From Clostridiales bacterium (GTDB lineage Bacteria > Bacillota_A > Clostridia > Saccharofermentanales > Saccharofermentanaceae), in the NCBI GenBank assembly GCA_017537905.1, contig JAFYJX010000025.1:1-35483 (forward strand): 35,483 nucleotides of DNA, written 5' to 3'. Position 1 is the first letter of the stretch, and every line of letters starts with the position of its first letter. The position numbers and the translations under genes were made by a program. Shown here one piece after another: positions 13,017-33,682 of the stretch. The notes below the pieces were generated by a model. It ran no database searches and was not told the origin of the DNA. It worked only from the letters and a program-made list of their open reading frames with translations.

Positions 13017-13718
13017 ATGGCTTATATTGAATTCAGAGATGTAAAGAAGGTCTACAAGACCGGCTCGGTAAATGTTACCGCGCTTGACGGATGCGACTTT
13101 TATATCGAAAAGGGCGAGCTCTGCGTCATAGTCGGCCAGTCCGGCGCCGGCAAGACCACGCTCCTTAATATCCTTGGCGGAATGGACAGACTCACATCAG
13201 GCGAAGTCTTCCTGGACGGCAACGAGATCTCCAAGCTCAATTCCAACGAGCTCGCTTTGTTCAGAAGACAGAACGTCGGCTTCGTTTTCCAGTTTTATAA
13301 CCTCATTCCGAATCTCACGGCATATGAGAATGTCGAGATGGCAGCGCAGCTCGTAAAAGACCCCATCAGCTGCGATCTGCTCATGAATGAAGTAGGCCTG
13401 GCTGAACGTAAGAACAATTTCCCGGCGCAGCTCTCAGGCGGCGAGCAGCAGAGAGTCGCGATAGCAAGAGCTATTGCCAAGAACCCGAAGCTCCTTTTGT
13501 GCGACGAGCCGACGGGCGCTCTCGACTATCAGACGGGTAAAGCCATCTTAAAGCTTCTACAGTCCCTCAGCACAGAGAAGGGCATGACTGTAGTAATAAT
13601 CACACACAACTCCGCGATTACGGCAATGGCAGACAGAGTTATCAAGGTCAAGAACGGCAAGATCACGAGCAACATAATTAACGAGAATCCGGTTAACGTA
13701 GACACGATCGAATGGTAA
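13017..13718 (+). CDS. ABC transporter ATPase, LolD/MacB-type
   Basis: A 233-residue nucleotide-binding subunit. Walker A is GQSGAGKTT (residues 40-48), the Q-loop is [10 protein letters not shown], the signature is [14 protein letters not shown], Walker B is LLLCDEP followed by the D-loop GALD, and the switch His is in IITHN. The spacing fits the MacB/LolD/FtsE group that works with FtsX-type permeases. GGGAGAG precedes ATG. The stop overlaps the start region of the next gene, which encodes exactly such a permease, so the two form one mechanotransmission-type ABC system. The substrate is not evident. Confidence 0.93.
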
Positions 13719-16700
13719 TGAAGCCTTACGCGAAAACGATCTTAAGATCGATCAGAATGACGCTTCCCAGATTTATCGCGATTTTCGCGATAATCGCATT
13801 GGGCGTGGGCTTTTTCGCCGGCCTCAAAGTAACCACACCGTCATTCGTCCATACGGCTGACGTCTATACAAAAGACTATGCGATGTTCGACTTCAAATTC
13901 TTATCGACGATAGGTTTCGAAGAAGAGGACATCGATGAGATCGCCAAGCGCACGAACTGCGTCGTTGAAGGCTCTTACACGGCTGACTGCGCAGCGTTCC
14001 TGGGAGATTCCGTAAGTGCCGATACCGTGCGCTTCCTTTCGATCACCAAAAACGTAAATAAGCTCAAGCTCGAAGCCGGCAGGATGCCTGAGAAGCCTGA
14101 CGAGATAGTCATTGACGGCTACAGGGTCTCATCTGCCCATATCGGCGAGAAGCTTGTCATCGCCGACGAGACCAGCGAGAGCGCCCGCGAAATGTTCAAG
14201 TACAAAGAGTATACGGTCGTCGGAACCGCCAGAACTCCTGTTTACATGAACTTCCAGCGCGGTACTTCTGACGAAGGCTCCGGCAGCATTCTGTACTACG
14301 TCTGTGCGCTTCCTGAAGCATTTGATTCCGAGTACTACACAGAAGCTTATCTGTATGCGGACACAGGCCTTTATATCTACTCCGATGAGTATAAGGACTG
14401 GGCCAAGACTGCTGAAGACCAATATGGAAAAGTCGTTGAAGACGTTATCAACAAGAGATTTGAAAAGCTTCTCAAAGACGAGTACCAGAAGCTCTACGAC
14501 GGTTTCGACGAATTCAACGAAGAGATAAGCGACGCATGGGATGAGATCGAGGACGGCCAGAAAGAACTGGACGATGCAAAAAAGAAGCTCGAAGACGGCC
14601 AGAAAGAGATAAACGATAACAGAAAAAAGCTTGCCGATGCCAAGAAGACTTTGGACAATTCCTCGAAAAAACTGAAGGACGCGAACAAGGAACTTACTTC
14701 TGCAAAGGTAATGCTCAATGCCGGCAAATCCCAGCTCGACAAGGCTAAGAAACAGCTTGACGGCTACAAGTCACAGTTAGACGGCTACCAGAAAGAAATA
14801 AACGACGGCCGTGAGAAGTTAAGTGATGCGAGGACCCAGACTGCTGAAGGAATAAAGGAACTGAAGAAAAATATTCCCATACTGGAATCTTCGATAGCTT
14901 CAGTCGGGGCGGGGATCACAAATCTCCAGGCGCAGCTCGATCAGGCGACTGACCCTGATGAGATCGAGGAATTGAAGGCAAAGATCGAGACCCAGAAAAA
15001 CACGAAGGCTGATCTGGAATCCAAGCTTGCTGCTGCAAAACAAAAGCTCACCGAACTGGAAACATTGGAAGCAGGCTTCGACGGCCAGGAAGAGCAGCTC
15101 AATGCTAAGCAGGAAGAGTTAAATCAACAGTATGCTGCTTATAACGACAGCTACTCCCAATATGTGACGGAGAAGACCAAGTACGACAAGAGCCTCGAAC
15201 AGTACAACAAGGGCAAGGCTGAGTATGATGAAGGCTTAAAGAAATACAACGACGGACTTAAAAAGTATAAGGACGGCGTGAAGAAATTAGACGACGCCCA
15301 GAAGGAAGTCGATGACGGCTGGAAAGAATACAATGACGGCGTCCTCGAGCTCTGGAACGGATATTCAGAATTCGCTTATGCAGCAGACACTACATTCAGG
15401 GCGGAACTCGTCTATGGTTACATCCTGCTCGATTCTGTTGATGCGCCTGACACTTATGCACTTGGCCGTGACAAGAACACAGGTTATGTCTGCTTTGATA
15501 ACGACTCCAAGATCGTTGACGGTATCGCCGCGGTTTTCCCGATCTTCTTTTTCGCGATCGCGGCGCTCGTATGCTCCACAACAATGAGCCGAATGGTAAG
15601 CGACGAGCGAGGCATCATCGGCACTATGAGGGCCCTTGGTTTCTCTGACACTGCGATCGTAATGAAATACGCAATTTACGCGGGCTCGGCTTCCGTGCTC
15701 GGAGGCGTGCTCGGATTCTTGGGCGGCACCAAACTCTTCCCGGCTGTCATCTGGGAAGTCTATGCGATGATGTACGGCTTTACGACTCTCGAATTCTCGA
15801 CGAGCATCCCGCTCTTCATCCTGTCTCTCGGCGTCGCGCTCATCTGCACGGTCGGCGTATCAGTCGTAACCGCAATGTCCGCGCTGACCGGCATGCCCGC
15901 TGAACTCATAAGACCCAAAGCACCGCTCCCGGGCAAGCGCATTTTATTAGAGCGTATCGGCTTTATCTGGACCAGGATGAAGTTCCTCCACAAAGTTTCG
16001 GCGCGTAACGTATTCCGCTTCAAAAAGAGAATGTGGATGATGATCGTCGGCATCGCAGGCTGCACGGCGCTCCTCCTTACCGCTTTCGGCCTCTACGACT
16101 CGATCTGCAACGTCGTAAACATCCAGTACGACGACATCATGAAATACGACCTCCAGGTCATGTTTGACGACAAGTACAGGCAGTATGAGATCGAAGACGC
16201 TGCCAAGGCCGCTCTTTCGCATTCCGGCATCAACTACGAATACGTTATCGTCAAAGACGACGTTGCCAAGAACAACGGCTCCGGCTATGTCCGCGATCTC
16301 GAAATGTTCATCTCCGACGACCCTAACACCTCGCTCATCTTCGGCCTCACCGATGTGAAGACAGGGGCGCCCCTGCCTTGGCCCGCCGACGGCGAAATAG
16401 CCGTATCCGGCAAGCTCGCAGAGAAGAACAACGTCAAGCCCGGCGACAGTGTAACATTGTTATATGGCGACGATGAGCACGAAGTAACGCTCAAAGTCGG
16501 CTCGGTCTTCACGAACTACACCTTCCACTATGTCATGATGACACCTGCCACATACAAGGAAGCTTTCGGCAAGCCTTACACGCCCGAGACGATCATCGTC
16601 AAGACAGAGACCAAGACTTCCGCCGATTCCTATAAGGTCGCTTCGTACCTCACGGACAATTACGACATCAAGACCTGGTCATCGACAAACGATTCCAGAG

Positions 16701-17128
16701 AGAGCTTCGCCAAGACGATGGAGCGCATGAACTACGTAATCGTCCTTGTCATCACATGCGCGGCCGCTCTCGCATTCATCGTGCTGTTTAACCTCAACAA
16801 CATCAACATTACCGAGCGTATAAGAGAGATCGCCACTCTGAAAGTCATGGGCTTCAACAAGCGCGAGACCGGCGCCTATGTAACCCGCGAGAACGTTATA
16901 TTGGTTCTGCTCGGCTTCATCGTCGGTATCCCGCTCGGTTTCCTGCTGCACCGCTACGTCATGGCGCAGATCGCGATGGACATGGTCACCTACCAGGTAA
17001 GGATCGTGCCCCTGAGCTATTTCTACTCGCTCGCGTTCGTACTGCTGTTCTCCACGATCGTAAATCTCATCATGCGCGCCAAGATTGAGAAGATCGACAT
17101 GGCCGAGTCGCTGAAGAGCGCGGAGTAA
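13712..17128 (+). CDS. Giant FtsX-type ABC permease with long extracytoplasmic coiled coil
   Basis: Up to 1138 residues. One membrane helix near residues 18-38 is followed by an extracytoplasmic domain. Then comes a coiled coil at about 265-547 made of Lys/Asp/Gly-rich units such as KYNDGLKKYKDGVKKLDDAQ, resembling the DG-rich repeats of YhgE/Pip proteins. A first FtsX helix set starts near 604 (FPIFFFAIAALVCSTTM) and includes GTMRALGFSDTAIVMKYA. A second extracytoplasmic domain lies between helices near 774 and 1008, and a last FtsX set contains ATLKVMGFNKRE. Two starts are possible: ATG at 13712, or ATG at 13718 in a TAATG overlap with the ATPase gene. The latter is the more usual coupling. 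Function inferred: export, signalling or wall-hydrolase control; substrate unknown. Confidence 0.9.
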   Translation: MVMKPYAKTILRSIRMTLPRFIAIFAIIALGVGFFAGLKVTTPSFVHTADVYTKDYAMFDFKFLSTIGFEEEDIDEIAKRTNCVVEGSYTADCAAFLGDSVSADTVRFLSITKNVNKLKLEAGRMPEKPDEIVIDGYRVSSAHIGEKLVIADETSESAREMFKYKEYTVVGTARTPVYMNFQRGTSDEGSGSILYYVCALPEAFDSEYYTEAYLYADTGLYIYSDEYKDWAKTAEDQYGKVVEDVINKRFEKLLKDEYQKLYDGFDEFNEEISDAWDEIEDGQKELDDAKKKLEDGQKEINDNRKKLADAKKTLDNSSKKLKDANKELTSAKVMLNAGKSQLDKAKKQLDGYKSQLDGYQKEINDGREKLSDARTQTAEGIKELKKNIPILESSIASVGAGITNLQAQLDQATDPDEIEELKAKIETQKNTKADLESKLAAAKQKLTELETLEAGFDGQEEQLNAKQEELNQQYAAYNDSYSQYVTEKTKYDKSLEQYNKGKAEYDEGLKKYNDGLKKYKDGVKKLDDAQKEVDDGWKEYNDGVLELWNGYSEFAYAADTTFRAELVYGYILLDSVDAPDTYALGRDKNTGYVCFDNDSKIVDGIAAVFPIFFFAIAALVCSTTMSRMVSDERGIIGTMRALGFSDTAIVMKYAIYAGSASVLGGVLGFLGGTKLFPAVIWEVYAMMYGFTTLEFSTSIPLFILSLGVALICTVGVSVVTAMSALTGMPAELIRPKAPLPGKRILLERIGFIWTRMKFLHKVSARNVFRFKKRMWMMIVGIAGCTALLLTAFGLYDSICNVVNIQYDDIMKYDLQVMFDDKYRQYEIEDAAKAALSHSGINYEYVIVKDDVAKNNGSGYVRDLEMFISDDPNTSLIFGLTDVKTGAPLPWPADGEIAVSGKLAEKNNVKPGDSVTLLYGDDEHEVTLKVGSVFTNYTFHYVMMTPATYKEAFGKPYTPETIIVKTETKTSADSYKVASYLTDNYDIKTWSSTNDSRESFAKTMERMNYVIVLVITCAAALAFIVLFNLNNINITERIREIATLKVMGFNKRETGAYVTRENVILVLLGFIVGIPLGFLLHRYVMAQIAMDMVTYQVRIVPLSYFYSLAFVLLFSTIVNLIMRAKIEKIDMAESLKSAE

Positions 17129-18260: not shown

Positions 18261-18381
18261 TTGTAATTCTTGTAAAAATTTTATATTTCTTTTCAAAAAG
18301 TGTAAAGCACGTTTGAGAAAATGGCAATCGGCAAAAATATTACAAATAAAGCGGATAGGGGGCTTTGAGCGCAAAATCTTA

Positions 18382-18410
18382 TTGAGTTATTGCGCGAAAA
18401 GTAATAAAAT
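18382..18410 (+). promoter_or_regulatory. Predicted promoter of the acetyltransferase-pepP-hydrolase operon
   Basis: TTGAGT (18382-18387) and TAAAAT (18405-18410) are separated by 17 bases, 35 bases upstream of the first start codon. Confidence 0.55.
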
Positions 18411-18444
18411 TTTTAAGATAGCAAAAGTGGAGGTATGTGCATTT

Positions 18445-19101
18445 ATGACTGATGAACTTAAAGACATTATATATGCCGATTTGTTCAGATACACCGGTAA
18501 TGCACGTCGCTACAAGAATATCTATGCATGCTATCTCGAAGAGAGAAGATCTTCTCCGGAGTTCAGCTACATAAGCGTTATGAGGCGTACCCGTTATTAT
18601 GCCGACCAGGTCAAGAAGTACGACGGCATAAGGAAGAAGATCTATCAGCTTAAGTTCGGAGTCAGCAATTACAGACTCGACAGGCTGAGCCGTAAGTATC
18701 ATTTCCAGATCCCTTATGACACGGATATCGGCAAGGGCTTCTATCTTGCCCATTTCGGCCGTGTCATCATTCACCCGAAGAGCGTTATCGGACATAACGT
18801 TAACGTATCGACAGGTGTTGTTATCGGTACCCAGTTCAGAGGTAAGAGGAAGGGTTCTCCTCATATCGGTAACTATGTGTGGATCGGTGCAAATGCAGTG
18901 ATCGTCGGTAATATCAGGATCGGCAACAACGTCCTTATCGCGCCCGGCGCATATGTAAATTTCGACGTTCCGGACGGTTCTATCGTAATCGGTAACCCCG
19001 GCCTCATAAGAAGATCACCCGGCGCTACGCTCAACTATATCAACAATACGATCCTCTTCGACGAATATAATGTTCGTTCGGACGGAGTCAAGCAGTGGTA
19101 A
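18445..19101 (+). CDS. Left-handed beta-helix acetyltransferase (serine O-acetyltransferase-like)
   Basis: A 218-residue hexapeptide-repeat acyltransferase. An N-terminal helical region leads into hexapeptide turns: IGKGFYLAHFGRVIIHPKS, VIGHNVNVSTGVVIGTQ, IGNYVWIGANAVIVGN and IRIGNNVLIAPGAYV. These end in the capping motif VIGNPGLIRRSPGA. His in the LAHFGR segment fits the catalytic position of CysE-like enzymes. The frame stays open upstream to 18313, but ATG at 18445 is preferred because TGGAGG lies at 18428-18433. Serine acetylation for cysteine synthesis and sugar O-acetylation for surface polysaccharide are both possible. There is no cysK or glycan gene nearby to decide. The stop overlaps the start of the aminopeptidase gene. 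Confidence 0.85.
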   Translation: MTDELKDIIYADLFRYTGNARRYKNIYACYLEERRSSPEFSYISVMRRTRYYADQVKKYDGIRKKIYQLKFGVSNYRLDRLSRKYHFQIPYDTDIGKGFYLAHFGRVIIHPKSVIGHNVNVSTGVVIGTQFRGKRKGSPHIGNYVWIGANAVIVGNIRIGNNVLIAPGAYVNFDVPDGSIVIGNPGLIRRSPGATLNYINNTILFDEYNVRSDGVKQW

Positions 19102-20336
19102 ATCCTTCATTTTACGTAAACAACAGAGAACGCTTTGCCGCCGCGCTGCCGGATCGCACCGCGGCTTTACTTTTCTCAGGCGAAGAAAAGCAGATGTCTC
19201 TGGATTCTGATTACAGGTTTTTCGCGGACCGCAACTTTTTCTATCTGACAGGATTAGAGCGCCCGGGCTTTGTCCTCGTGATCGAAAAGTTCGATGGCAA
19301 AGTAACATCCAGGGTCTATGCCCCCGCGCACGATTCCAAGAAGGAGCGCTGGCACGGCAAACGCATGGATTTCGCTGATATCGCTGCCATTGCAGGACTT
19401 GATGCAGAAGATGTTCTCGATCTGGAGAAGTACGAGGAGAAAGAGTACGAGCTGATCAGGAACACTGACATCAACATCTATCTTGATGCTTCGACTGTTA
19501 TGTCCAAATCCAAGGAACTTAGGAAGCAGATCGAAAAGGACGGCCGTAAGGCATCTGACCTCTCAGAGATCACCACGCCTCTGCGCATGATAAAATCGCA
19601 GCACGAGATCGATTCCATTAAGGAAGCTGCAAGGATCACCGAAGAAGCCATAGCAGAGATGAAAAAGCTCATAAAACCGGGCGTTTCCGAGTATGAGCTT
19701 TACTTGAAACTGGAATATGAGATGGCCAGAAGGAGTTCTATGAGCTTTGCTTTTGAGACAATAGTCTCATGCGGCAGGAATGCTTTCTATCTTCACCATT
19801 CGGATCCCGAGAGAGACGGTGACGGAATAGCGAAGGAAGGCTCGATAATCCAGATCGACTGCGGTGCCAGAATGAACGGGTGCTGCGCAGACATCTCGAG
19901 AGTATTCTTCGTCGGAAAACCTGAAGGTGAGAACGACAAGAGGATCCTGCTTTTGGGACTGATTCAGGAATTAAGAAAAGCGGCTTTTGGCTTTATAGCG
20001 CCCGAAAAAACTTTCGCAGGGCTTAATTCACAAATGTATGACATAACCGGCAAATGGCTTGCAGGACAAGGCCTAATACCCGATAATTTTACAGATGAGG
20101 ATGTAAAATGCTACTACTGGCACAACACATCCCATTATCTCGGAATGGACGTTCACGACGTCGGTCCGAGGGACAAGGAATTTGAGGCGGGTAATTGTCT
20201 TGCCGTAGAGCCGGGTGTTTATATCCCTGAATGGGACATCGGCTTCAGGATCGAAGATGATTGCCTTGTAACAGAAAATGGCTGTCAGCTCCTGAGCTCC
20301 GGGTGTGACAGCCCGGAGGGCATAATTGTCGGATAA
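19095..20336 (+). CDS. pepP: Xaa-Pro aminopeptidase (M24B family)
   Basis: Removes an N-terminal residue that precedes proline. The 413-residue protein has the aminopeptidase P N-terminal domain (SDYRFFADRNFFYLTGLERPG) and a C-terminal pita-bread domain. All five dinuclear-metal ligands are visible: Asp in IQIDCGARM, Asp in CCADISRVFF, His in HNTSHYLGMDVHDVG, Glu in LAVEPGVYIPEWD and Glu in FRIEDDCLV. The start is GTG at 19095 with GGAG 7 bases before it, inside the end of the acetyltransferase gene. Its own end carries GGAGGG and overlaps the hydrolase start. Such tight overlaps indicate one translationally coupled operon. Confidence 0.95.
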   Translation: MVNPSFYVNNRERFAAALPDRTAALLFSGEEKQMSLDSDYRFFADRNFFYLTGLERPGFVLVIEKFDGKVTSRVYAPAHDSKKERWHGKRMDFADIAAIAGLDAEDVLDLEKYEEKEYELIRNTDINIYLDASTVMSKSKELRKQIEKDGRKASDLSEITTPLRMIKSQHEIDSIKEAARITEEAIAEMKKLIKPGVSEYELYLKLEYEMARRSSMSFAFETIVSCGRNAFYLHHSDPERDGDGIAKEGSIIQIDCGARMNGCCADISRVFFVGKPEGENDKRILLLGLIQELRKAAFGFIAPEKTFAGLNSQMYDITGKWLAGQGLIPDNFTDEDVKCYYWHNTSHYLGMDVHDVGPRDKEFEAGNCLAVEPGVYIPEWDIGFRIEDDCLVTENGCQLLSSGCDSPEGIIVG

Positions 20337-21339
20337 CGGATCTGGTGTTACCGCTGTTCTCGTTGCGGTTCTCATAGTACTCGTATTGATCCTCGTAGGG
20401 GGAGTACTTTTTGTGCTGTTCCTGTCATTCACCGACAAAGTCTTCAAGAAGCTTTTCACGAGACCGAAGCCGCTTCCGCAGGTCGACAGATCGCCTAAGA
20501 AGATCGACAGAAGCACGATAATAGGACGCGGCAAGAACTGGTTCTATACATTCCATAACGAGTGGCTCGGCGTAAGGACAACGACCTTTGACGGATGCCG
20601 TCTCTCAGGCTATTACAGGCCTTCGTCAGACAGGACATGCCGCAACATGGTTATCCTGGTCCACGGCTACGACGAATCTCCCGCAGAGATGGCCGCATAT
20701 GCGCGGTTGATGATGCGCAAGGTCCAGTGCCACTGCATTATTACCCATATGAGAGCGCACGGCATGAGCGGCGGCAAGACCTTCACATGGGGTCTTATGG
20801 AGAGCGTCGATCTCGATAACTGGTTTACATTCACCAAGAGACGTTTGGGAAATAACTGCCGAATCTATCTGGTAGGCAGGGGAGCGGGCGCGACTGCGTG
20901 CCTTCTTGCTGCGCAGCAGAAGGGCTTTGACGAGTGCGTCTGCGGCATTATCGCCGATTCGCCGATGGCATCGCTTTCGGGCTTTCTGAGAGCCACGCTG
21001 CCCCAGAGCACAAACATCAATCCCGACTGGGTAATCGGCCAGATTAGAAGAACTGCACAGCACAAGTTCGGATTCGACATCAACCGCTGTGACTGCGCCG
21101 TACACGCGAGTTCGATCAAGGTTCCTGTCCTGATATTCCAGGGCGGAGAAGACGATATTACGCCGCCTTCAGGCTCGCGTGAGCTCTACGATAATCTGAG
21201 ATCCAGGAAGAGAATGGTCATCGTCAACAACGCCAAGCACATGGAATGTTATGAGAAATCGCAGGCGATGTATGAGCGCGAAGTCCAGAAATTCATTGAG
21301 TCTTGTGTAGTGAGACTCGTAAAGATCGGTCGCCTCTAA
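20326..21339 (+). CDS. Membrane-anchored alpha/beta-hydrolase-fold protein lacking the nucleophilic serine
   Basis: A 337-residue protein. Residues 8-34 form a membrane anchor, and the rest is an alpha/beta-hydrolase of the Bem46/CocE-like group. The oxyanion-hole strand ILVHGYDE (about 110-117), the acid in GGEDDITPP (D277) and the His in AKHMECY (H305) are present. The nucleophile elbow, normally Gly-X-Ser-X-Gly, reads GRGAG (184-188), so Gly replaces the catalytic Ser at 186. The start is TTG at 20326, with GGAGGG 5 bases upstream, overlapping pepP. The missing Ser implies a non-hydrolytic role (binding, scaffold) or loss of activity. The rest of the frame is intact and shows no sign of decay. 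Confidence 0.85.
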   Translation: MSDNGSGVTAVLVAVLIVLVLILVGGVLFVLFLSFTDKVFKKLFTRPKPLPQVDRSPKKIDRSTIIGRGKNWFYTFHNEWLGVRTTTFDGCRLSGYYRPSSDRTCRNMVILVHGYDESPAEMAAYARLMMRKVQCHCIITHMRAHGMSGGKTFTWGLMESVDLDNWFTFTKRRLGNNCRIYLVGRGAGATACLLAAQQKGFDECVCGIIADSPMASLSGFLRATLPQSTNINPDWVIGQIRRTAQHKFGFDINRCDCAVHASSIKVPVLIFQGGEDDITPPSGSRELYDNLRSRKRMVIVNNAKHMECYEKSQAMYEREVQKFIESCVVRLVKIGRL

Positions 21340-21370: not shown

Positions 21371-21409
21371 TCGCGAAAAAGGTGATATAACCTTCTAGTT
21401 TGTTCGCGA
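21371..21409 (+). promoter_or_regulatory. Leader hairpin touching the MATE ribosome binding site
   Basis: TCGCGAA (21371-21377) and TTCGCGA (21403-21409) are perfect complements, with an inner AAGG/CCTT pair. The right arm overlaps the first bases of the GAGGA ribosome binding site of the next gene, so folding could limit its translation. Confidence 0.4.
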
Positions 21410-21417
21410 GGATTTAT

Positions 21418-22788
21418 ATGAACGCCAAGAAATTAAGAAAACAATCCATGACTGAAGGAAGTCTCTGGAATAAGATCCTGGGATTTGCTTTCCCTCTCGC
21501 AATGACGGGGATCCTTCAACAAGCTTTCAATGCGGCTGATATTGCAGTCGTAGGTAATTTCACGGGCGAAGCAGGCGAGGCGGCCATGGCTGCGGTAGGC
21601 GCGAACACTCCCATTATCAATTTCATAATCAACGGATTTCTCGGCATCTCTCTCGGTACCAACGTTGTGATCGCAAATGCGGTCGGAAGCAAGGACGAGA
21701 AGACTGTTCAAAAGGCAGTTCATACATCATTGATCGTTGCAATAATCGGGGGTCTCATTACAGCGATCCTTGCTGAGTTTCTGGCAGAGCCCCTCTTAAG
21801 GGCGCAGAACATTTCAGATGACGCAATCAGGATGGCGATCCTTTATTTCAGGATCTATGTCGGAGGTCTTCCCGTTATCCTTCTATACAACTTCGAAGCG
21901 GCCATTTTCAGAGGCATCGGCAACACGAGGATACCTTTTATAGCGCTCGTCATATCAGGACTTGTAAATGTCGGCATGAACATCTTTTTCGTGCTGTGTC
22001 TCCACAGAACGGTCGACGGTGTTGCAGCTGCCACGGTTATCGCAAACATGCTCAGCAGCATTATCCTGCTGCTCTTTTTGAGGAAGACCAAGACATCCGC
22101 GAAGTTCGATGAGAAGAAGCTGAAGATCGACTGGCAGACACTTAAGAAGATCCTTAAGATCGGCATCCCTGCGAGCCTTCAGTCCTGCGTGTTTTCATCA
22201 GCAAACATCATCATCCAGTCAGCGATCAACAGCTTGGGAACGCTCGTTGCCGCTGCGTCTTCGGCTGCATTTAATATCGAGATATTCTCATACTATGTAC
22301 TCAACAGTTTCGGCCAGGCATGCACAACTTTCACGGGCCAGAATTACGGTGCAAAGAAGTTCGACAGATGTAAGAAATCACTTAAGCTCTGCCTCCTGGA
22401 AGGCATCGTAATAGAAGGCCTGATGGTCTCATTCCTGCTGTTCTTCGGCAGGGATCTGATCGCGATATTCAAGCCCGGCGATCCCGAACTTGTTGAGATC
22501 GGTTATATCCGTGTCATGTTCATCACGACAGCGCACCTGTTATCGCTCTTCTACGATGTTATGAGCGGATACATGAGAGGATACGGAATCTCGCTGTCTC
22601 CCGCGCTCGTTACGATGTGCTGCATCTGCGGCATCAGGATCATCTGGATATACACTGTTTTCGAGCACTTCAGATCGTTTACGAGCATCATGGCGGTATA
22701 CCCTTTGAGCCTTGGCGTAAACGCTCTTGCGATCTTCATATTGCTGCTTATAAAGCGCCCTGCGAAAAAACTGGGCGGCAAGCTCTGA
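21418..22788 (+). CDS. MATE-family cation/drug antiporter
   Basis: A 456-residue, 12-helix exporter of the multidrug and toxic compound extrusion family (NorM/DinF-like), driven by Na+ or H+. Typical features are MTEGSLWNKILGFAFPLAMTGILQQ followed by ADIAVVGNF, the NFIINGFLGISLGTNVV stretch, and in the second half SCVFSSANIIIQSAINSLG with FGQACTTFTGQNYGA. The frame extends upstream to TTG at 21400, but ATG at 21418 is preferred: GAGGA ends 5 bases before it and the family's N-terminus fits. No regulator is adjacent; a leader hairpin may affect its translation. The substrate cannot be deduced. Confidence 0.93.
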   Translation: MNAKKLRKQSMTEGSLWNKILGFAFPLAMTGILQQAFNAADIAVVGNFTGEAGEAAMAAVGANTPIINFIINGFLGISLGTNVVIANAVGSKDEKTVQKAVHTSLIVAIIGGLITAILAEFLAEPLLRAQNISDDAIRMAILYFRIYVGGLPVILLYNFEAAIFRGIGNTRIPFIALVISGLVNVGMNIFFVLCLHRTVDGVAAATVIANMLSSIILLLFLRKTKTSAKFDEKKLKIDWQTLKKILKIGIPASLQSCVFSSANIIIQSAINSLGTLVAAASSAAFNIEIFSYYVLNSFGQACTTFTGQNYGAKKFDRCKKSLKLCLLEGIVIEGLMVSFLLFFGRDLIAIFKPGDPELVEIGYIRVMFITTAHLLSLFYDVMSGYMRGYGISLSPALVTMCCICGIRIIWIYTVFEHFRSFTSIMAVYPLSLGVNALAIFILLLIKRPAKKLGGKL

Positions 22789-22836: not shown

Positions 22837-22849
22837 TTTGGCGACAAAC

Positions 22850-22934
22850 GGAAACCGGGGAGCTTTAAAAAGCTGAGAGGGATCAGACATCCGACCCGAT
22901 GAACCTGACGGATAATGCCGGCGTAGGGAACCTT
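22850..22934 (+). ncRNA. TPP (THI-box) riboswitch
   Basis: The hallmark aptamer blocks are present in order: GGGGAGC, a small variable hairpin, GCTGAGAGG, ACCCGATGAACCTGA and GGATAATGCCGGCGTAGGGA. They match the thiamin pyrophosphate-sensing THI element. CCTCC at 22952-22956, just after the aptamer, is complementary to the CGGAGG ribosome binding site at 22996-23001. This suggests translational control: TPP binding would free CCTCC to mask the site. No strong intrinsic terminator was found between aptamer and gene. Confidence 0.95.
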
Positions 22935-23008
22935 ATATATCTTCATTTTGGCCTCCTGTAATTGGTGTGATCCCCAGGGATTAACAACCGTTTGACGGAG
23001 GTGTTTTT

Positions 23009-24382
23009 ATGTCCAAACAATCTACTATGTCCTATCGTGAGAATATCTTAAGGATAGCCACGGGCGGCGTATGCCTCGCACTCGCGTTCGTGCTCTCACA
23101 GTTGAAGCTCTTTGAGATGCCTATGGGCGGAACAGTAACACCGGCATCAACATTGCCTATCATTGCTTATGGTGTTGCATTCGGACCTTTCTGGGGATTT
23201 ATCATCGCATTCATCTTCAGTCTTCTGCAGCTCATCGGCGGCTGGCTCGTTACTCCTTTCCAGGTATTCCTCGATTACACTATCGGTTATACAGCTCTGG
23301 GATTTGCCGGTTTTGCAGCTCTTAAGCCTGATTCGAGATCGAAGATCTCCGGTGCGCTTAACAGATTCAGAGCTGCATCGATCCTTAAGATCCTTGTGTT
23401 CACGATCATCGCTTACGTTGTAAGATGGCTCGGCTCTGTTGCTTCAGGTGTCATCTTCTATGCTGAATATGCAGCTGACGCAGGCTATGACAACGCTCTC
23501 GTTTACTCCATGGTCTACAACGGTTCATTCCTCCTTGTTGACCTTGCGATCCTTTCTGTAGTACTTGTAGTTCTCTACATGGTTCTTCCTTCGAACAGAG
23601 ACGATTCGACTGTTTCTTTCATCCAGAAGTTTACTGCCGAATTCATTGGTACGTTCGTACTCGTTTTCGTAGGATGCGGTACTGCAATGGCAGTAGGATG
23701 TGATACTGTAAACGGCGGCGGATATATCCTCACCGCATTTGCTTTCGGTCTCGTTATCGTTGCTATGGCATACTGCATCGGCAACGTTTCAGGCTGCCAC
23801 ATCAATCCTGCCGTATCTCTTGCGATGCTCATCTCCAAGAAGATGACAATCCAGGAATTCTGGGGCTATGTCGTATTCCAGATCCTCGGTGCTGTTTCAG
23901 GTGCAGGCCTTCTCCAGTATCTTTTCGAGCAGGCTCAAAAGATCGATATGACCGGCGTTTACGATGCGGAAAAGAAGGCTATGCTCTCATGGGGCCTCGG
24001 CGCCAACGGTCTTGCCGGCGTTAACAACAACTTTGTTGCAGGTCTCATAATCGAGCTCGTTCTCACATTCATCTTTGTTCTGACGATCCTCGGCGTTACT
24101 GACGCCAAGTTCAAGCATGGTTCATTCGGCGGCGTCGTTATCGGATTTGCTCTCGTTCTGGTACACATCTTAGGTATCAGCTTTACTGGCACATCTGTTA
24201 ACCCTGCACGTTCCATCGGACCTGCGCTCTTTGCAGGCGGCGCAGCTCTTACAAGCCTCTGGGTATTCATCACAGGACCTATGGCTGGCGCAGCTCTTGC
24301 AGCTGTTGTTTATAAGGCACTTACAAAGGCAAAGGCTGAGAAGGCCGAATCTGCTGCCTCAGAAGACAAAGCTGAAGAGTAA
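23009..24382 (+). CDS. ThiT thiamine S-component fused to an AqpZ-type aquaporin
   Basis: One uninterrupted 457-residue frame. Residues about 10-195 are a ThiT/YuaJ thiamine-binding S-component of an ECF transporter: six hydrophobic segments with LDYTIGYTALGFAG, RWLGSVASGVIFYAEYA and YSMVYNGSFL. After a short linker (LPSNRDDSTVSFIQ), residues 205-440 are a full MIP channel with both NPA boxes (N266-P267-A268 in GCHINPAVS; N398-P399-A400 in TSVNPARS). The AqpZ selectivity-filter residues all align by spacing: F246, H386, T395 and R401. The tail is a charged AKAEKAES-type sequence. CGGAGG precedes ATG. A TPP riboswitch upstream supports the thiamine half. EcfA/EcfT genes are not in the window. 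The family names are secure; the joint function is unknown. Confidence 0.93.
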   Translation: MSKQSTMSYRENILRIATGGVCLALAFVLSQLKLFEMPMGGTVTPASTLPIIAYGVAFGPFWGFIIAFIFSLLQLIGGWLVTPFQVFLDYTIGYTALGFAGFAALKPDSRSKISGALNRFRAASILKILVFTIIAYVVRWLGSVASGVIFYAEYAADAGYDNALVYSMVYNGSFLLVDLAILSVVLVVLYMVLPSNRDDSTVSFIQKFTAEFIGTFVLVFVGCGTAMAVGCDTVNGGGYILTAFAFGLVIVAMAYCIGNVSGCHINPAVSLAMLISKKMTIQEFWGYVVFQILGAVSGAGLLQYLFEQAQKIDMTGVYDAEKKAMLSWGLGANGLAGVNNNFVAGLIIELVLTFIFVLTILGVTDAKFKHGSFGGVVIGFALVLVHILGISFTGTSVNPARSIGPALFAGGAALTSLWVFITGPMAGAALAAVVYKALTKAKAEKAESAASEDKAEE

Positions 24383-27473: not shown

Positions 27474-29873
27474 TTACTCTCCGAAAACAGAATCGCAGTA
27501 TCTTACTGTCGCCATTGCATCCTTTGCATAAGCGTCAGCGCCGATCTTGTCTGCATATTCAGGCGTCATGACAGCACCGCCGACAACGACCTTGGTGTCG
27601 GGCTTTTTCTCGCGCAAAAGCTTTATGGTCTCTTCCATAGAAGCAACTGTTGTTGTCATGAGAGCGGAAAGACCAACGACCTTAATGTTGTTTTCAATCG
27701 CACAATCAACTATGGTTTCCGGCGGAACGTCCTTGCCTAAGTCGAGCACGTCGTAGCCGTAATTCTCGAGCATTACCTTAACGATGTTCTTTCCGATGTC
27801 GTGGATGTCGCCTTTGACGGTGGCGAGGATCACCTGACCCTTAGTTGTTCTGGGCTTATCTGCCATCGCTTCCTTGACTACTGCGAATGCTGCCTTTGCT
27901 GCATCTGCGCTCATGAGAAGCTGGGGAAGGAAAACGGTTCCTTTCTCAAATCCTTTTCCGACTTTGTCGAGAGCAGGGATAAGATCTGCGTCGATTATCT
28001 CAAGTGAATCCCTGCCTGAAGCAAGTTCTTCTTTCATCGCTTCTGTGGCACGTCCTACAACGCCTCGCTCGATTGCTTCTGCGAGTGTTAATACTGCGTT
28101 AGATGCGGAAGAAGCAGCTTTCGATCCTGTGGAAGACTGGGCTGATCCTGCCACATAGTCCTTATACGCATTGATGTATTCTGCAAGATTAGGATCTAAG
28201 TTCATCAGCGCGTTAAATGACCTGTAGGAAGCCATCATGGGGCCGTTGCAGGGGTTGATGATAGCGCACGAAAGGCCGTTCTGCATTGCCATTGCGAGGA
28301 AATAAGAATTGACCAGTTCACGTGCGGGAAGTCCGAACGAGATGTTCGATACGCCGAGGATGGAATGGCCGTTAAATTCATCACGCACGCGCCTTACGGT
28401 ATCGAGCGTTGCGATAGCGGAATTAGGGTCAGAAGATACGGTCATTGCGAGACCGTCGATTACGATATCTTTTCTCGGAATTCCGTATTTGTCTGCAGCT
28501 TCGTAGATGCGCTTGGCGATAGCTATACGGCCGTCTGAAGTCTCAGGAATGCCGCTCTCATCCAGAGGGAGAGCAACGAGCACGCCGCCGTATTTAGCGA
28601 CAAGGGGCATTACTGCTTCGATATTTTCGACCTTGCCGTTTACGGAGTTGATCATTGGCTTGCCGTTATAGATCCTAAGGCCGCGCTCCAGTGCTTCGAT
28701 ATTTGTCGTGTCGAGCTGCAGCGGAAGGTTTGTAACAGACTGGATCTTTACTACGACTTCTTCCATCATGGAAGGCTCGTCGATCTCAGGAAGGCCGACA
28801 TTGACGTCAAGGATGTGCGCGCCTGCTTCTTCCTGATTCAAGGCTTCAGTCAAGAGATAATCGATATTGTTGTCGCGGAGCGCCTGCTGGAGCTTTTTCT
28901 TACCGGTAGGGTTGATGCGCTCGCCGATGATGACGGGCTTTCTGCCGATCTTAACGCAGTCGGCAAAGCTCGTGACATATGTCTCGTTCTTTGTTGTCGG
29001 CGCGATGAAGGGAAGTGTCTTAACCGTGTTTATCATCTTGCTGATGTGCGCGGGAGTCGTGCCGCAGCAGCCGCCCATGACGTGCACGCCGAGCTTAGCG
29101 ATCTGTTCCATTACTTCTGCAAACCCATCAGGGTCAACATCGTAAACAGTAACGCCGTTTTCGGTTCTGGGAAGTCCGGCGTTAGGGTTAACAACGATAG
29201 GAAGTGAGCAGCATTTTACGAGGCGCTCGGCGATAGGGAGCATCTGCTTAGGACCGAAACCGCAGTTGATGCCGATAGCGTCGACCTTAAGACCTTCTAA
29301 CATTGCGACCGTACCTTCGACACTGCCGCCTGTAAGGAGCTTACCGGTCTCGTCGTAGACCATTGTGACGATTACGGGGAGGTTGCATACTTCGTGAGCT
29401 GCTACTACTGCTGCCTTGGCTTCATAAGAGTCGCTCATCGTCTCGATGACGACAACGTCTCCGCCTGCCTCATAGCCGGCCTTAATTATCTCTGCGAAAA
29501 CATCGACTGCATCATTGAACTTCAGGTCGCCCATGGGCTCTAAAAGCTTTCCCGTAGGGCCTACATCGATCGCTACATAAGCGTCGTCTTCACGTCCTGC
29601 TTCTTTTCTGGCCTGCTGGCAGAGCTTAACGGCAGCGGTAACGATCTCTGTTACGTTATCAAACTTGAATCTGTTGGCACCGAAAGTGTTTGTATTTACG
29701 ATATTTGAGCCTGCTTCGAAATAGCCTTTGTTAAGCGTTATTATGTCGTCAGGCCTGGTGAGGTTCCATGTTTCAGGGAGTTCGCCGCCCTTAAGGCCTA
29801 AGCCCTGCAGGATCGAACCGGTACCTCCGTCACAGAATAACCATTCTTTGCCAAGTCTGTCTCTTAAGCTCAT
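27474..29873 (-). CDS. metH: Cobalamin-dependent methionine synthase, short form
   Basis: Transfers a methyl group from methyl-THF through cobalamin to homocysteine. The 799-residue protein has the homocysteine-binding domain (1-290) with zinc ligands C204 in INCGFG and C269/C270 in GGCCGTTP. The pterin-binding domain follows (about 310-570; GERINPTGKKKLQQAL and ILDVNVGLPEIDEP). Then come a helical cap and a Rossmann cobalamin domain with GDIHDIGKNIV near residue 690, whose His is the lower cobalt ligand. The C-terminal activation domain of long MetH is absent and is encoded separately by the gene just upstream. AAAGGG at the end of that gene serves as ribosome binding site 4 bases after its stop. 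It is the last gene of the metF operon. Confidence 0.96.
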   Translation of the reverse strand: MSLRDRLGKEWLFCDGGTGSILQGLGLKGGELPETWNLTRPDDIITLNKGYFEAGSNIVNTNTFGANRFKFDNVTEIVTAAVKLCQQARKEAGREDDAYVAIDVGPTGKLLEPMGDLKFNDAVDVFAEIIKAGYEAGGDVVVIETMSDSYEAKAAVVAAHEVCNLPVIVTMVYDETGKLLTGGSVEGTVAMLEGLKVDAIGINCGFGPKQMLPIAERLVKCCSLPIVVNPNAGLPRTENGVTVYDVDPDGFAEVMEQIAKLGVHVMGGCCGTTPAHISKMINTVKTLPFIAPTTKNETYVTSFADCVKIGRKPVIIGERINPTGKKKLQQALRDNNIDYLLTEALNQEEAGAHILDVNVGLPEIDEPSMMEEVVVKIQSVTNLPLQLDTTNIEALERGLRIYNGKPMINSVNGKVENIEAVMPLVAKYGGVLVALPLDESGIPETSDGRIAIAKRIYEAADKYGIPRKDIVIDGLAMTVSSDPNSAIATLDTVRRVRDEFNGHSILGVSNISFGLPARELVNSYFLAMAMQNGLSCAIINPCNGPMMASYRSFNALMNLDPNLAEYINAYKDYVAGSAQSSTGSKAASSASNAVLTLAEAIERGVVGRATEAMKEELASGRDSLEIIDADLIPALDKVGKGFEKGTVFLPQLLMSADAAKAAFAVVKEAMADKPRTTKGQVILATVKGDIHDIGKNIVKVMLENYGYDVLDLGKDVPPETIVDCAIENNIKVVGLSALMTTTVASMEETIKLLREKKPDTKVVVGGAVMTPEYADKIGADAYAKDAMATVRYCDSVFGE

Positions 29874-29877
29874 TTGT

Positions 29878-30555
29878 TTAAGCCCTTTCTTTCGAATAAT
29901 TGCAGGTATCTTTTTTATTGCATCCGGCGCAGCCGGAGCATGTTGTCTTAGCCTTATCTATGCCGATGCCGATTATAGCAGTAACTGATTTTGTAGGAAC
30001 CATAAGGAGCGAATCGGTAAGCTCTACGCCGATCTGCTTAGATATATCAAGGAGTCTGAACCAGTCCTTCTGGTGGTCGAGCTTTAAGTCGCCGTAGCCC
30101 GGAGAGAATCTGGGGCGGAGGAAGAGACCCTGCGCTTCATAATCGGCCTTGATCTTGTCGTTCATGTCATCTAAGAAAGCTTCGATGGCCGCAGCGCCTG
30201 CCGCCTGATAGATCGCAGCATCTGCAGCGGATGTTATGGAAGCTCTTCTGACTAACATGTCGCACGCGGGTCCGATCGTTGCAGCGAGGAGAAGCGCTCC
30301 GCAGCAGCCTTTGATATTCCGTGCCAATGATTCTGATTCCAGATTGACTTCTTCTGTACCGTTATAGATCGTGATGACATTGCCGTTGATCCTTAACGGG
30401 TATTCCTTTGTGATTATGCGCGGATGAGACTGGGCACTGACATGGTCAATCGCTTTGTTGATACGCTCCTGCATATCGGGCGCGATCTCATTGATACCAT
30501 GGTAACCCATGTATCTCTGGACTTCTTTTACGGGAATGTCAACACCAAGAGGCAT
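29878..30555 (-). CDS. Stand-alone MetH activation-domain protein
   Basis: A 225-residue protein matching the vitamin-B12-dependent methionine synthase activation domain, which binds S-adenosylmethionine and supports reductive remethylation of the inactive cobalamin. The signature LRPRFSPGYGDLKLDHQKDWF contains the RxxPGYGD motif. The C-terminus carries a Cys cluster (TTCSGCAGCNKKDTC, with four Cys) absent from the domain inside long MetH; it could bind a metal or iron-sulfur centre as an electron-transfer site, which is inferred. Its ATG overlaps the metF stop (TGATG), and its end provides the metH ribosome binding site, so the three proteins are made together. Confidence 0.92.
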   Translation of the reverse strand: MPLGVDIPVKEVQRYMGYHGINEIAPDMQERINKAIDHVSAQSHPRIITKEYPLRINGNVITIYNGTEEVNLESESLARNIKGCCGALLLAATIGPACDMLVRRASITSAADAAIYQAAGAAAIEAFLDDMNDKIKADYEAQGLFLRPRFSPGYGDLKLDHQKDWFRLLDISKQIGVELTDSLLMVPTKSVTAIIGIGIDKAKTTCSGCAGCNKKDTCNYSKERA

Positions 30556-31418
30556 CAGTCGATGATTCCTTTGAGGTTATAGAGAATGTCGGAAGCGACG
30601 TCAGGCTTGTTCATGGAATATACGTGAACGTGCGTGATGCCGTTTGCGATAAGGTCGATGATCTGCTCTGTAGCGTAAATGATTCCTGCCTGGCGCATGG
30701 CGACAGGATCGTCACCGAAACGGTCGACTATAGCCTTGAAACGCTCTGGAACGCTGGTTCCGGAGAGCTGGACTGATCTCGATAACTGCTTTGCGGTAGT
30801 GATCGGCATGATGCCCGGAACGATCGGAACGTTGATGCCTACATCCTTAACCCTGTAGAGGAAGTTATAGAAGATGTTGTTGTCGAAGAACATCTGTGTC
30901 GTAAGGAAGTCACAGCCTGCATCGACCTTCTCCTTAAGGAAGTGGATGTCTTCAGCTTTGTTGGCGGATTCAACGTGGCCTTCAGGGTAGCACGCGCCGC
31001 CGATGCAGATGTCTGAATCCAAAGATCTGATTTCTCTGACCAAGTCTGAAGCGTGCTCGAAATCGTGGCAGACGATGCCGTCCTTGGGGAGGTCTCCGCG
31101 AAGTGCCATTACGTTGTCGATATTGTTTTCGCGGATCTGATGGATCATGTTAGCTACGTGCTCTTTGGTGGAAGCTACGCAGGTTAAGTGCGGCATTACC
31201 GGAACGCCGTGAAGATTCTTGATGTCTGATGCGACTTCGACAGTGAGCTTGGAAGTAGAGCCTGCGGCACCGTAGGTTACGGACATGAATGAAGGGTTAA
31301 GTGCTGCGATGGCGCCTGCTGCCGTCTTTACTTCATTTAAGCCTGTCTCCTGCTTGGGAGGGAAGACCTCGAAAGAGATCGTGGGAGTCTTATCTGCAAG
31401 TATTTTGTTAATCTTCAT
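30555..31418 (-). CDS. metF: 5,10-methylenetetrahydrofolate reductase
   Basis: Reduces methylene-THF to methyl-THF, the methyl donor for MetH. The 287-residue TIM-barrel flavoprotein begins with the family pattern ISFEVFPPK (E17 matches the catalytic Glu). It continues with MSVTYGAAGS, HLTCVASTKEHV, NVMALRGDLPKDG, GGACYPEGH, DFLTTQMFFDN and PIVPGIMPI, all diagnostic. GGAA precedes ATG at 31418. It is first in the metF-activation-metH operon, and its stop overlaps the next start by one base. A 142-base divergent promoter region separates it from the corrinoid/iron-type importer. Confidence 0.96.
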   Translation of the reverse strand: MKINKILADKTPTISFEVFPPKQETGLNEVKTAAGAIAALNPSFMSVTYGAAGSTSKLTVEVASDIKNLHGVPVMPHLTCVASTKEHVANMIHQIRENNIDNVMALRGDLPKDGIVCHDFEHASDLVREIRSLDSDICIGGACYPEGHVESANKAEDIHFLKEKVDAGCDFLTTQMFFDNNIFYNFLYRVKDVGINVPIVPGIMPITTAKQLSRSVQLSGTSVPERFKAIVDRFGDDPVAMRQAGIIYATEQIIDLIANGITHVHVYSMNKPDVASDILYNLKGIID

Positions 31419-31497
31419 AATAAAATTCCTTGTTTTCGCATAGATTTTAGATATAGAACAGTTGCCAATAAGTATACCTCAAAAGCGGGTCAAATAT

Positions 31498-31503
31498 TAT
31501 AAT
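31498..31503 (+). promoter_or_regulatory. -10 element for the ABC importer operon
   Basis: A consensus TATAAT lies 57 bases before the start codon of the binding protein. No good -35 box is visible. The 142-base region between the divergent operons contains no cobalamin or SAM riboswitch that I can recognise. Confidence 0.4.
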
Positions 31504-31560
31504 TTAGTCGAACAATAAGAAGCATTGGCGTCCGTGCCTTGTTTTTAGGAGGTTTTAAGA

Positions 31561-32628
31561 ATGAAGAAGATTATTTCAGTTATTCTTGCAGCTGCAGCTA
31601 CTCTGGCACTTGCAACAGGCTGTAATAACACTAATGTTACTGTTCCTTCAGTAACAGTTCCGTCAGAGATCGAATCACTCGTTTCCGAGGGAAAGGAACT
31701 TGTTGATGACTTAAATATCACGGTTCCCACTAAGGACCGCGCAGGCAATGACATTAAGATTCCGGAGAAGGTTGAGAAGATCGTTTCACTGGCACCTTCC
31801 ACAACACAGTTCCTTATTGACTTAGGTCTTGGGGACAAGATCATCGCCATCGATACAAACTCTGCAACATATGCTGATAAGCTTAAGGCAGACATCCCGC
31901 AGTTCGACATGATGAACCCTGATAACGAAGCTATCGCAGCGCTCGCTCCTGATCTCGTTTTCACATCAGGCATGAGCTCTGTAGGCGGCACATCACCTTT
32001 CCAGTCTCTTGTTGACAGCGGCATCTGCGTAGCTGATATTCCTTCACCTTCTTCTCTCGAAGGCATTTGTGAAGACCTGGAATTCATCGGTGCATGCGTC
32101 GGCAAGGGTGCTGAGGCTCTCGCTTATTCAAAGGGCTTTACAGCTTTTATGTCAGGCATCGAGGAGATCGGCAAGAATATTCCTGCTGACCAGCAGAAGA
32201 CAGTTCTCGTAATGATGAACGTTCCTTCCGCTGAGTATCCTACAATCTACACATTCGGCAAGGGCACATACATGAACGAGATGCTCGAAGCAATCGGCGC
32301 TAAGAATGTTTTCGGCGACAAGGAAGGATGGCTCTCCGTTTCCGTCGAGGAAGCAATCGCAGCTAATCCTGACGTTATCCTCATGGACTGCAACTGGATG
32401 CCTGATGCAGCAGACCAGGTAAAGGCTCTTAAGGGCTGGGAGAACGTAAATGCCATCAAGAACGGCGCAGTTTATGCCGTAAATGAGGACCTCTGCTCCC
32501 GTCCTAACCAGCATGTTTCCGAGGCAACTCTCGAGTGGGCAAAGCTCATCTATTCTGAGCAGTTCAGCAACTTTACAAAGAATTTCGACGACATCACAAA
32601 CGAAATCCTTTCGAAGGTTCTCGGATAA
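31561..32628 (+). CDS. Substrate-binding lipoprotein of a corrinoid/siderophore-type ABC importer
   Basis: A 355-residue lipoprotein with signal KKIISVILAAAATLALATGC (lipobox LATGC) and a strong AGGAGG ribosome binding site. The mature part is a TroA/BtuF-like binding protein: PEKVEKIVSLAPSTTQFLIDLGL, LVFTSGMSS, EDLEFIGACVGK, PTIYTFGKGTYMNEMLEAIGAKNVF and NPDVILMDCNW are typical segments. Both cobalamin and ferric siderophore proteins share this fold. Cobalamin is favoured here only because the operon is divergent from the B12-dependent methionine genes. The permease gene follows 19 bases later. Confidence 0.9.
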   Translation: MKKIISVILAAAATLALATGCNNTNVTVPSVTVPSEIESLVSEGKELVDDLNITVPTKDRAGNDIKIPEKVEKIVSLAPSTTQFLIDLGLGDKIIAIDTNSATYADKLKADIPQFDMMNPDNEAIAALAPDLVFTSGMSSVGGTSPFQSLVDSGICVADIPSPSSLEGICEDLEFIGACVGKGAEALAYSKGFTAFMSGIEEIGKNIPADQQKTVLVMMNVPSAEYPTIYTFGKGTYMNEMLEAIGAKNVFGDKEGWLSVSVEEAIAANPDVILMDCNWMPDAADQVKALKGWENVNAIKNGAVYAVNEDLCSRPNQHVSEATLEWAKLIYSEQFSNFTKNFDDITNEILSKVLG

Positions 32629-32647
32629 TTTTTGACGAGCAAGTATT

Positions 32648-33682
32648 ATGACTAAGAAGGGCACAGGACTTAAGATAGCGTTATCAGCAGTCCTGTGCCT
32701 TTTTATATTGCTTCTCGCGATCAGACAGGGAAGCGTATATATCTCGCTCAAAGACCTCTTTGGAATAATCGGAGGCCACATCTCAGGCAAGGGAACGCCT
32801 TCTGACATCGAGCCCATGATGGATTCGATTTTCTGGACCATCAGAATGCCCAGAGCCCTAATGGCATTTATGGTCGGCGGCGCGCTATCCATAAGCGGCG
32901 CGTGCATGCAGGCATTGCTGCAAAATCCTCTCGCATCTTCTTACACTTTGGGTGTTTCGTCCGGTGCTTCACTCGGTGCGGCACTGGTAATAATCCTGGA
33001 GATTTCCATTCCTGTGTTGGCAGGCTTCATGCTTCCTTTCGCAGGCTTTGTTTTTGGCCTTATAACGGTCTGCGGGGCACTTCTTCTGGCGTCCGCGATC
33101 GACAGGAGCGTATCTAACACGACAGTAGTCCTGATAGGTATGATCCTGTCGCTTTTCGTAAACGGCATAATGAACCTGTTATCCTCGCTCTATTCCGACA
33201 ACTCAAAGCAGCTCCATCTCTGGATGATGGGCTCTTTTTCCGCAAGGAGCTGGACGCACTGCGCTATCATGCTGCCGGTATGTATCTTTGGTCTTGTCTG
33301 CCTTATGCTGATGTCCCGAAAACTGGACATCATGAGCTTCGGCGACCTTCAGGCCCAGGCTATGGGTGTTGATTCGACAAAGACGAAGATCGTTTCTATC
33401 CTTATCTGCGCATTGCTTACCGGTGTATCCGTAGCATTCACAGGCGTTATCGGATTTGTCGATCTCGCCGCGCCTCATGTTGTAAGAAGGATCTTCGGAC
33501 CTTCGCATAAACTCGTTATCCCTATGTCATTCATCTACGGCGGCGCATTCATGGCTTTGTGTGATCTTATATCGCGAACACTTTTGTCGCCCCGCGAGAT
33601 CCCTGTCGGCGCAGTAACAGCCCTCATTGGAGCTCCGTTCTTCGCATATGTTTTCTTCGCTTCAAGGAGGAAACACGCATGA
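32648..33682 (+). CDS. FecCD/BtuC-type ABC importer permease
   Basis: A 344-residue integral membrane protein with about ten helices. FecCD-family segments are clear: WTIRMPRALMAFMVGGALSI, ACMQALLQNPLASSYTLGVSSGASLGA, LWMMGSFSARSW, ALLTGVSVAFTGVIGFVDLA with APHVVRRIFG (the loop that contacts the ATPase), and SRTLLSPREIPVGAVTALIGAPFFAYVFF. It forms the translocation pore with the flanking binding protein and ATPase. The stop overlaps the ATPase start in ATGA, and AAGGAGG lies in its last codons. Confidence 0.94.
   Translation: MTKKGTGLKIALSAVLCLFILLLAIRQGSVYISLKDLFGIIGGHISGKGTPSDIEPMMDSIFWTIRMPRALMAFMVGGALSISGACMQALLQNPLASSYTLGVSSGASLGAALVIILEISIPVLAGFMLPFAGFVFGLITVCGALLLASAIDRSVSNTTVVLIGMILSLFVNGIMNLLSSLYSDNSKQLHLWMMGSFSARSWTHCAIMLPVCIFGLVCLMLMSRKLDIMSFGDLQAQAMGVDSTKTKIVSILICALLTGVSVAFTGVIGFVDLAAPHVVRRIFGPSHKLVIPMSFIYGGAFMALCDLISRTLLSPREIPVGAVTALIGAPFFAYVFFASRRKHA

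Follow-up and report, generated by a model that had tools for sequence, protein, structure and literature searches.

A ThiT-family S-component joined in frame to an aquaporin at a TPP-riboswitch locus in one clade of gut and rumen bacteria

Introduction

S-components of ECF transporters are believed to deliver their vitamin by toppling within the membrane. ThiT, a group II S-component (PDB 3rlb, 4mes), is the closest described relative of the N-terminal half of the protein studied here, with which it shares the family PF09515, six predicted helices and a TPP riboswitch; an EcfT-family gene is likewise found in the related fusion genomes tested. The protein differs from ThiT in being fused to a channel, in having D, S and Y in place of E84, H125 and W133, and in having GxxxA for AxxxA. 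Its C-terminal half has the same fold as AqpZ and other bacterial MIP channels, with two NPA boxes and the F/H/T/R filter at the AqpZ spacings, but the protein adds an N-terminal S-component, about 12 residues between helices 3 and 4, and riboswitch control.

PMC11109136 describes fusions of 5TMR and NRAMP domains as prevalent in archaea, and presents the NRAMP fusion as the only assembly among 5TMR proteins that is fused with an integral membrane transporter. Like our protein, these fusions link a fold of the S-component kind to an integral membrane transporter; however, the 5TMR domain is C-terminal, the partner transports metals, and neither ThiT nor an aquaporin is involved. The initial annotation of the window (the whole stretch of DNA analysed, 35,483 nucleotides) knew of no described protein that couples an S-component to a channel, and our survey of the open-licence literature agreed, as no published description of a ThiT-aquaporin fusion was found there. 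Databases already contain such fusion proteins, named after either half. The protein combines two known families in a new way and is a second case, besides 5TMR-NRAMP, of an S-component fold joined to a membrane transport protein. A natural fusion of an S-component to a rigid channel that is expected to be tetrameric offers a test of S-component movement, of release from the ECF module and of the benefit of clustering.

Results

The frame was open throughout, with no stop and no frameshift at the junction in the window. The Pfam families Thia_YuaJ (PF09515, residues 17-194; 3.2e-33, 115.8 bits, cut-off 25.8) and MIP (PF00230, residues 200-435; 5.9e-51, 173.8 bits, cut-off 25) were the only domains of the window protein at E 0.001, which supports the reading of one frame holding ThiT and a complete MIP channel (Table 1). 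The ThiT half scored 97.2 bits against the NCBIfam equivalog TIGR02357, below its cut-off of 108.45, and it is therefore filed here as a ThiT-family domain and not as a proven ThiT equivalog. The aquaporin half scored 189.7 bits against the aquaporin Z equivalog (cut-off 256) and 171.2 against the wider MIP subfamily model (cut-off 171.25). Judged from these scores, both halves are family members without proof as equivalogs. M191, near the end of the ThiT half, is invariant in the fusion alignment; a GGAGG-like stretch for an internal re-start, which would yield a free aquaporin, was not seen just 5' of it in the window.

Table 1. Features of the fusion locus (positions in the window)
Feature	Position	Strand	Remarks
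Hexapeptide protein, aminopeptidase P and alpha/beta hydrolase (ancestral neighbours)	18313..21339	+	Pfam
TPP riboswitch aptamer (RF00059)	22846..22946	+	59.9 bits, gathering score 54.3; 62 bases before the start codon
Possible expression platform hairpin; GGAGG (22997-23001) pairs with a 5' CCUCC	22951..23002	+	predicted fold
Fusion ORF	23009..24382	+	457 codons open
S-component half of the ThiT family (residues 1-194), predicted to have six helices	23009..23590	+	PF09515, profile match, AlphaFold2
Linker, residues 193-200, natural ThiT C-terminus to former aquaporin N-terminus	23585..23608	+	non-helical in the model
Aquaporin half, residues 201-440, AqpZ-type	23609..24328	+	
Loop insertion (residues 317-328) separating aquaporin helices 3 and 4	23957..23992	+	typical of fused copies
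Variable charged C-terminal tail and stop codon	24329..24382	+	length and sequence vary

The two-domain architecture was looked for in protein databases and found in 75 proteins, the window protein included. These are part of 98 matches of a ThiT-region search among candidates of about 251-800 aa, each match standing for a 90%-identity cluster; for the other 23, the only Pfam domains listed, if any, are from S-component families. When 5.8 billion proteins were searched, fusions appeared at 76-100% identity among the best 120 of 4219 matches, and four database entries (P0002-P0005) are near-identical to the window protein (99-100%). Ruminococcaceae bacterium R-25 carries the fusion on a 1.69 Mb contig. 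Among the 80 loci kept from a contig scan, L001-L007 are fusions, and L004 belongs to Ruminococcaceae bacterium AB4001 (G004), whose record has no MAG tag. Other sources include MAGs labelled Saccharofermentans, Clostridiales and, in the case of one partial protein, Lachnospiraceae.

Within the family of AB4001, 25 of 115 genomes carry the fusion, at 26 loci. An order-level search at E 1e-110 returned the identical 25 among 188 genomes, and a class sample at the same threshold gave 4 of 391, all four among the 25. No fusion was found outside the one family in the order and class samples at E 1e-110, a threshold that a distant fusion could escape. The fusion is common in one clade and unseen elsewhere, and its carriers are one group of gut and rumen bacteria. 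One genome (G024, contigs C48 and C29) holds two different copies of the fusion, with 83% and 77% identity to the window protein, which are paralogs or the product of a mixed bin; one of the two was used for the trees and the riboswitch counts.

The 26 fused rows form one clade in the aquaporin tree (100/100) on a long stem of 0.46 changes per site. They lie inside a 55-row clade (100/99) that takes in every stand-alone row of the family except one, and their exact sister is weakly placed (80/44). The ThiT tree, which has long-branched outgroup rows and is unsure in its deep part, also gives the 26 fused rows as one clade (98/98), nested in stand-alone ThiT. One clade alone does not prove a single origin.

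The same three upstream neighbours as in the window precede thiT in all 20 fetched stand-alone loci, stretches of 5-8 kb in which a search for an aquaporin ORF found none. A riboswitch also lies 5' of the stand-alone thiT at all 18 loci scanned (L133 and L135 were left out); 11 matches are over the gathering score and seven below it, the latter at 47-54 bits and E 3.5e-6 or better. Since neighbours and riboswitch are shared, the aquaporin came to thiT's own place. The stand-alone ThiT proteins nearest to the fusion have tails resembling ..VIPSKK.., the N-terminus of most of the family's stand-alone aquaporins lies near MDSVKKYVAEF.., and the fused junctions, which recur in the other fusions, read ..VIPSSKxDxTxxxIQKFTAEF... 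It follows that both proteins were joined almost whole, with few residues between them. A MATE-family transporter gene (21400-22788, +) lies between the hydrolase gene and the riboswitch; it is present in 7/7 fusion loci (L001-L007), and no match at 1e-12 was seen in the 20 stand-alone thiT loci.

The riboswitch ahead of the fusion gene, proposed at the outset, was recovered over the gathering score. It also stands 5' of the fused gene at 25/25 other loci examined, 24 over the gathering score and one (L111) below it at 52.9 bits, so the recurrence of the architecture beside TPP riboswitches in related genomes is clear. The Shine-Dalgarno sequence GGAGG is paired in a predicted hairpin, and similar pairing was seen in all four folded fused loci (the window, L001, L004 and L006; z-scores -1.1 to -2.5). 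When the aptamer is included, the hairpin is absent from the minimum-energy fold and present in the centroid (z-score +0.63). With such modest z-scores, these predicted folds no more than hint at translational control by the riboswitch.

Both halves are under purifying selection. Median dN/dS (Nei-Gojobori; pairs with a synonymous difference of at least 0.70 or too few sites dropped) was 0.10 for the fused ThiT and 0.13 for the fused aquaporin, compared with 0.18 and 0.16 for the stand-alone relatives. All 325 pairs were kept for each fused half, and 104/190 and 182/190 for stand-alone ThiT and aquaporin; the median synonymous difference of the fused halves is 0.52-0.54, so these ratios are rough. 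The junction gave 0.24 (161/325 pairs) and the loop 0.19 (203/325), and the C-terminal tail, with 0.73 in the 84/325 scorable pairs, is weakly constrained.

The NPA boxes (266-268 and 398-400) are invariant in the 34 aligned fusions, out of the 75, and so are the filter residues F246 (33 rows and one gap), H386, T395 and R401. The channel therefore has both boxes and the four filter residues as first described; we take the F/H/T/R filter and its numbering to be of the AqpZ type, which is a strict water type. The loop segment carries W328 in 26/26 and V317 in 24/26 fused rows, and it is a gap in 22/24 stand-alone aquaporins of the family and 24/25 other aquaporins (S_L152 was excluded from the comparison of fused and stand-alone aquaporins); one fused protein, P0062, is without it. 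In the structure model the insert, about 12 residues long, folds into a small hairpin, and it lies where the protein is expected to face outside.

Aquaporins are tetramers, and both of their termini lie on the cytoplasmic side. The AlphaFold2 model (pLDDT 76.6), built with more ThiT relatives, superseded an earlier one with a poor N-terminus (69.8). It places the helices of the ThiT half at 6-31, 49-58, 60-77, 83-103, 125-150 and 163-192, and the first aquaporin helix starts at 201. The aquaporin fold was recovered, and fold searches returned aquaporins only, this half filling the list; the ThiT fold was assessed by sequence profile. Substrate-bound S-components including ThiT have both termini toward the cytoplasm, according to PMC4860826. 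The join is topologically simple because the termini of both partners are cytoplasmic. A new docking face for ThiT on aquaporin helix 3 was considered and rejected, as the sites showed no significant clustering on a single face (permutation p 0.10). Five of the 13 fused-specific fixed aquaporin sites lie in helix 3 (hypergeometric P 0.013), a lead only, as this helix was chosen post hoc.

A profile of the ThiT domain and nine stand-alone relatives matched the solved ThiT 3rlb at E 1.4e-6; no ThiT was recovered when the sequence of the ThiT half alone was searched against solved structures. The thiamine contacts of L. lactis ThiT are given as Trp34, Glu84, His125 and Trp133 in PMC5037267. Three of the four differ in the profile alignment (E84 to D89, H125 to S143, W133 to Y151), and the placement of W34 of loop L1 is not confident. 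Among the 34 fusions, D89 is found in 34, S143 in 33 (one gap) and Y151 in 28, with F in the other six. The impression that both halves look intact calls for qualification in the S-component, given its three altered contacts. A loss of contact residues specific to the fusion was rejected, as all nine aligned stand-alone relatives carry the identical D, S and Y; the change therefore predates the fusion. The helix 1 motif for EcfT docking is AXXXA, which PMC5037267 writes as PhiXXXA. It is GxxxA (G20, A24) in 34/34 fusions and in the nine aligned relatives, and the first position in 23 other ThiT rows is A in 17 and G in six.

No stand-alone ThiT clearly over the Pfam cut-off was found in the 25 fusion genomes. 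In AB4001 one match is borderline against the cut-off of 25.8 (25.5 bits alone, 26.1 with neighbours). A further 14 matches, in this or other genomes, are weaker and probably represent other S-components. The EcfT family (PF02361) was over the cut-off in 18/18 fusion genomes tested, with more than 140 bits in 17 and only 61 bits in G057. Thiamine pyrophosphokinase was over the cut-off in 24/25 genomes, and in G081 it is in two pieces. ThiC was found in 17/25 and ThiE over the cut-off in 19/25; with 17 genomes having ThiC, most fusion genomes may also make thiamine. Neither ThiC nor over-cut-off ThiE was found in six (G004, G031, G032, G057, G058 and G089), absences that are uncertain in drafts, and in G032 and G089 a weak sub-cut-off ThiE match adjoins the pyrophosphokinase gene. 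Because these six keep the pyrophosphokinase, the fused ThiT is, as far as gene content indicates, probably their thiamine importer. A separate stand-alone aquaporin is present in 24/25 fusion genomes among the matches listed (further matches of G073 fall outside the listing), and a fused copy should therefore not be required for water permeability by itself.

Discussion

We consider, with a probability of about one half, that the fusion is a bifunctional protein whose aquaporin serves both as a water pore and as a hub for four ThiT units. A copy of a family-type aquaporin gene would have come to lie in frame behind the 3' end of thiT, within the ancestral TPP-riboswitch locus of that gene; the simplest course is a single event in the clade's ancestor. 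We infer that the ThiT part, apparently the cell's only clear ThiT, binds thiamine and docks on the shared ECF module, and that the aquaporin part forms an AqpZ-type water pore, as its residues suggest, and a tetramer, as in its family. With the termini of both parts in the cytoplasm and a linker of about 8 residues, four ThiT units would surround one aquaporin tetramer. The main gain would be clustering, as a fixed four-valent hub would keep the ThiT units together and near ECF modules, and the short linker may still allow each unit to topple. Water conduction would be kept, probably uncoupled from the thiamine flux; that the filter and NPA residues do not vary speaks against a dead scaffold.

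Of three meanings that had been offered for the fusion, we tentatively favour a membrane scaffold. Cells import only traces of thiamine, which makes water balance an improbable reason for it, and osmotic coupling of vitamin uptake appears unlikely on these grounds of flux. Release of thiamine assisted by the channel appears unlikely on grounds of size, the AqpZ-type filter being far too narrow for thiamine. Against the bifunctional hub weigh the changed thiamine contacts, the GxxxA motif, the shortfall to TIGR02357, the lack of a significant docking face and the confinement to one clade, and a simple bifunctional protein that gains nothing from clustering would also be consistent with the strong purifying selection.

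The strongest rival is retention without benefit, to which we would give roughly one chance in four. A chance join in the resident thiT, with no separate ThiT left, would have been kept because the cell needs ThiT, and the channel would be harmless and stay intact through selection on folding. The single clade of fused rows and the second aquaporin, which may make the fused channel redundant, agree with this. However, a useless pore should drift, whereas the filter and NPA boxes do not vary and dN/dS of the fused aquaporin is no higher than in stand-alone copies; some pore residues also matter for folding, so this counter-argument is not conclusive.

It is rather unlikely that the fusion serves a thiamine-regulated permeability to water or small solutes, in which the amount of channel follows the TPP status and ThiT is only the vehicle. 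The riboswitch at the window gene and at every other fused locus examined, together with the separate aquaporin as a second copy, would suit such a role. Yet the riboswitch is ancestral to thiT and therefore need not have been chosen for the channel, and the filter is of the strict water type.

Less likely again, the fused S-component has given up thiamine for a related compound, or serves as a sensor gating the channel. The three substitutions relative to L. lactis ThiT and the relaxed docking motif would fit this, but the stand-alone relatives have identical residues, and the six genomes that keep the pyrophosphokinase point to thiamine itself. We regard as slightly more doubtful still that toppling of ThiT on the ECF module moves the cytoplasmic mouth or outer face of the aquaporin, changes its water conductance and so gates the water pore, in a tetramer with four S-components. 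An assembly or gene-calling artefact, for which broken or chimeric database copies (P0061, P0070, P0081) and two entries listing the aquaporin part only (P0079, P0080) might speak, is practically ruled out by the recurrence in 75 database proteins and 25 genomes, the long contig of R-25, the conserved junction, the ancestral locus and the purifying selection.

The two aquaporin-only entries were also examined as split genes, and this was rejected, as the fused frame is open on contigs of identical size: their longest contigs have 84,710 and 276,045 bases, exactly as G055:C38 and G020:C19. They look like internal start calls. Three further entries (P0074, P0077, P0078) have 290-292 aa, come from contigs under 4 kb and start within ThiT or near it. 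Two fusions (P0075, P0076) end at residue 260, just before the first NPA box, and among P0070 and P0081 one is a fusion without the stretch before that box and the other a chimera-like stand-alone aquaporin. These four are probably due to misassembly between similar aquaporin genes, or to gene conversion.

Elsewhere in the window, an ABC ATPase gene is followed by a gene (13712-17128, +) for an FtsX-like permease of 1138 aa that weakly matches coiled-coil families. The region 27474-34431 encodes a cobalamin-dependent methionine synthase, a B12-dependent synthase activation domain, MTHFR and an importer of the FecCD/periplasmic-binding type, all ordinary-looking.
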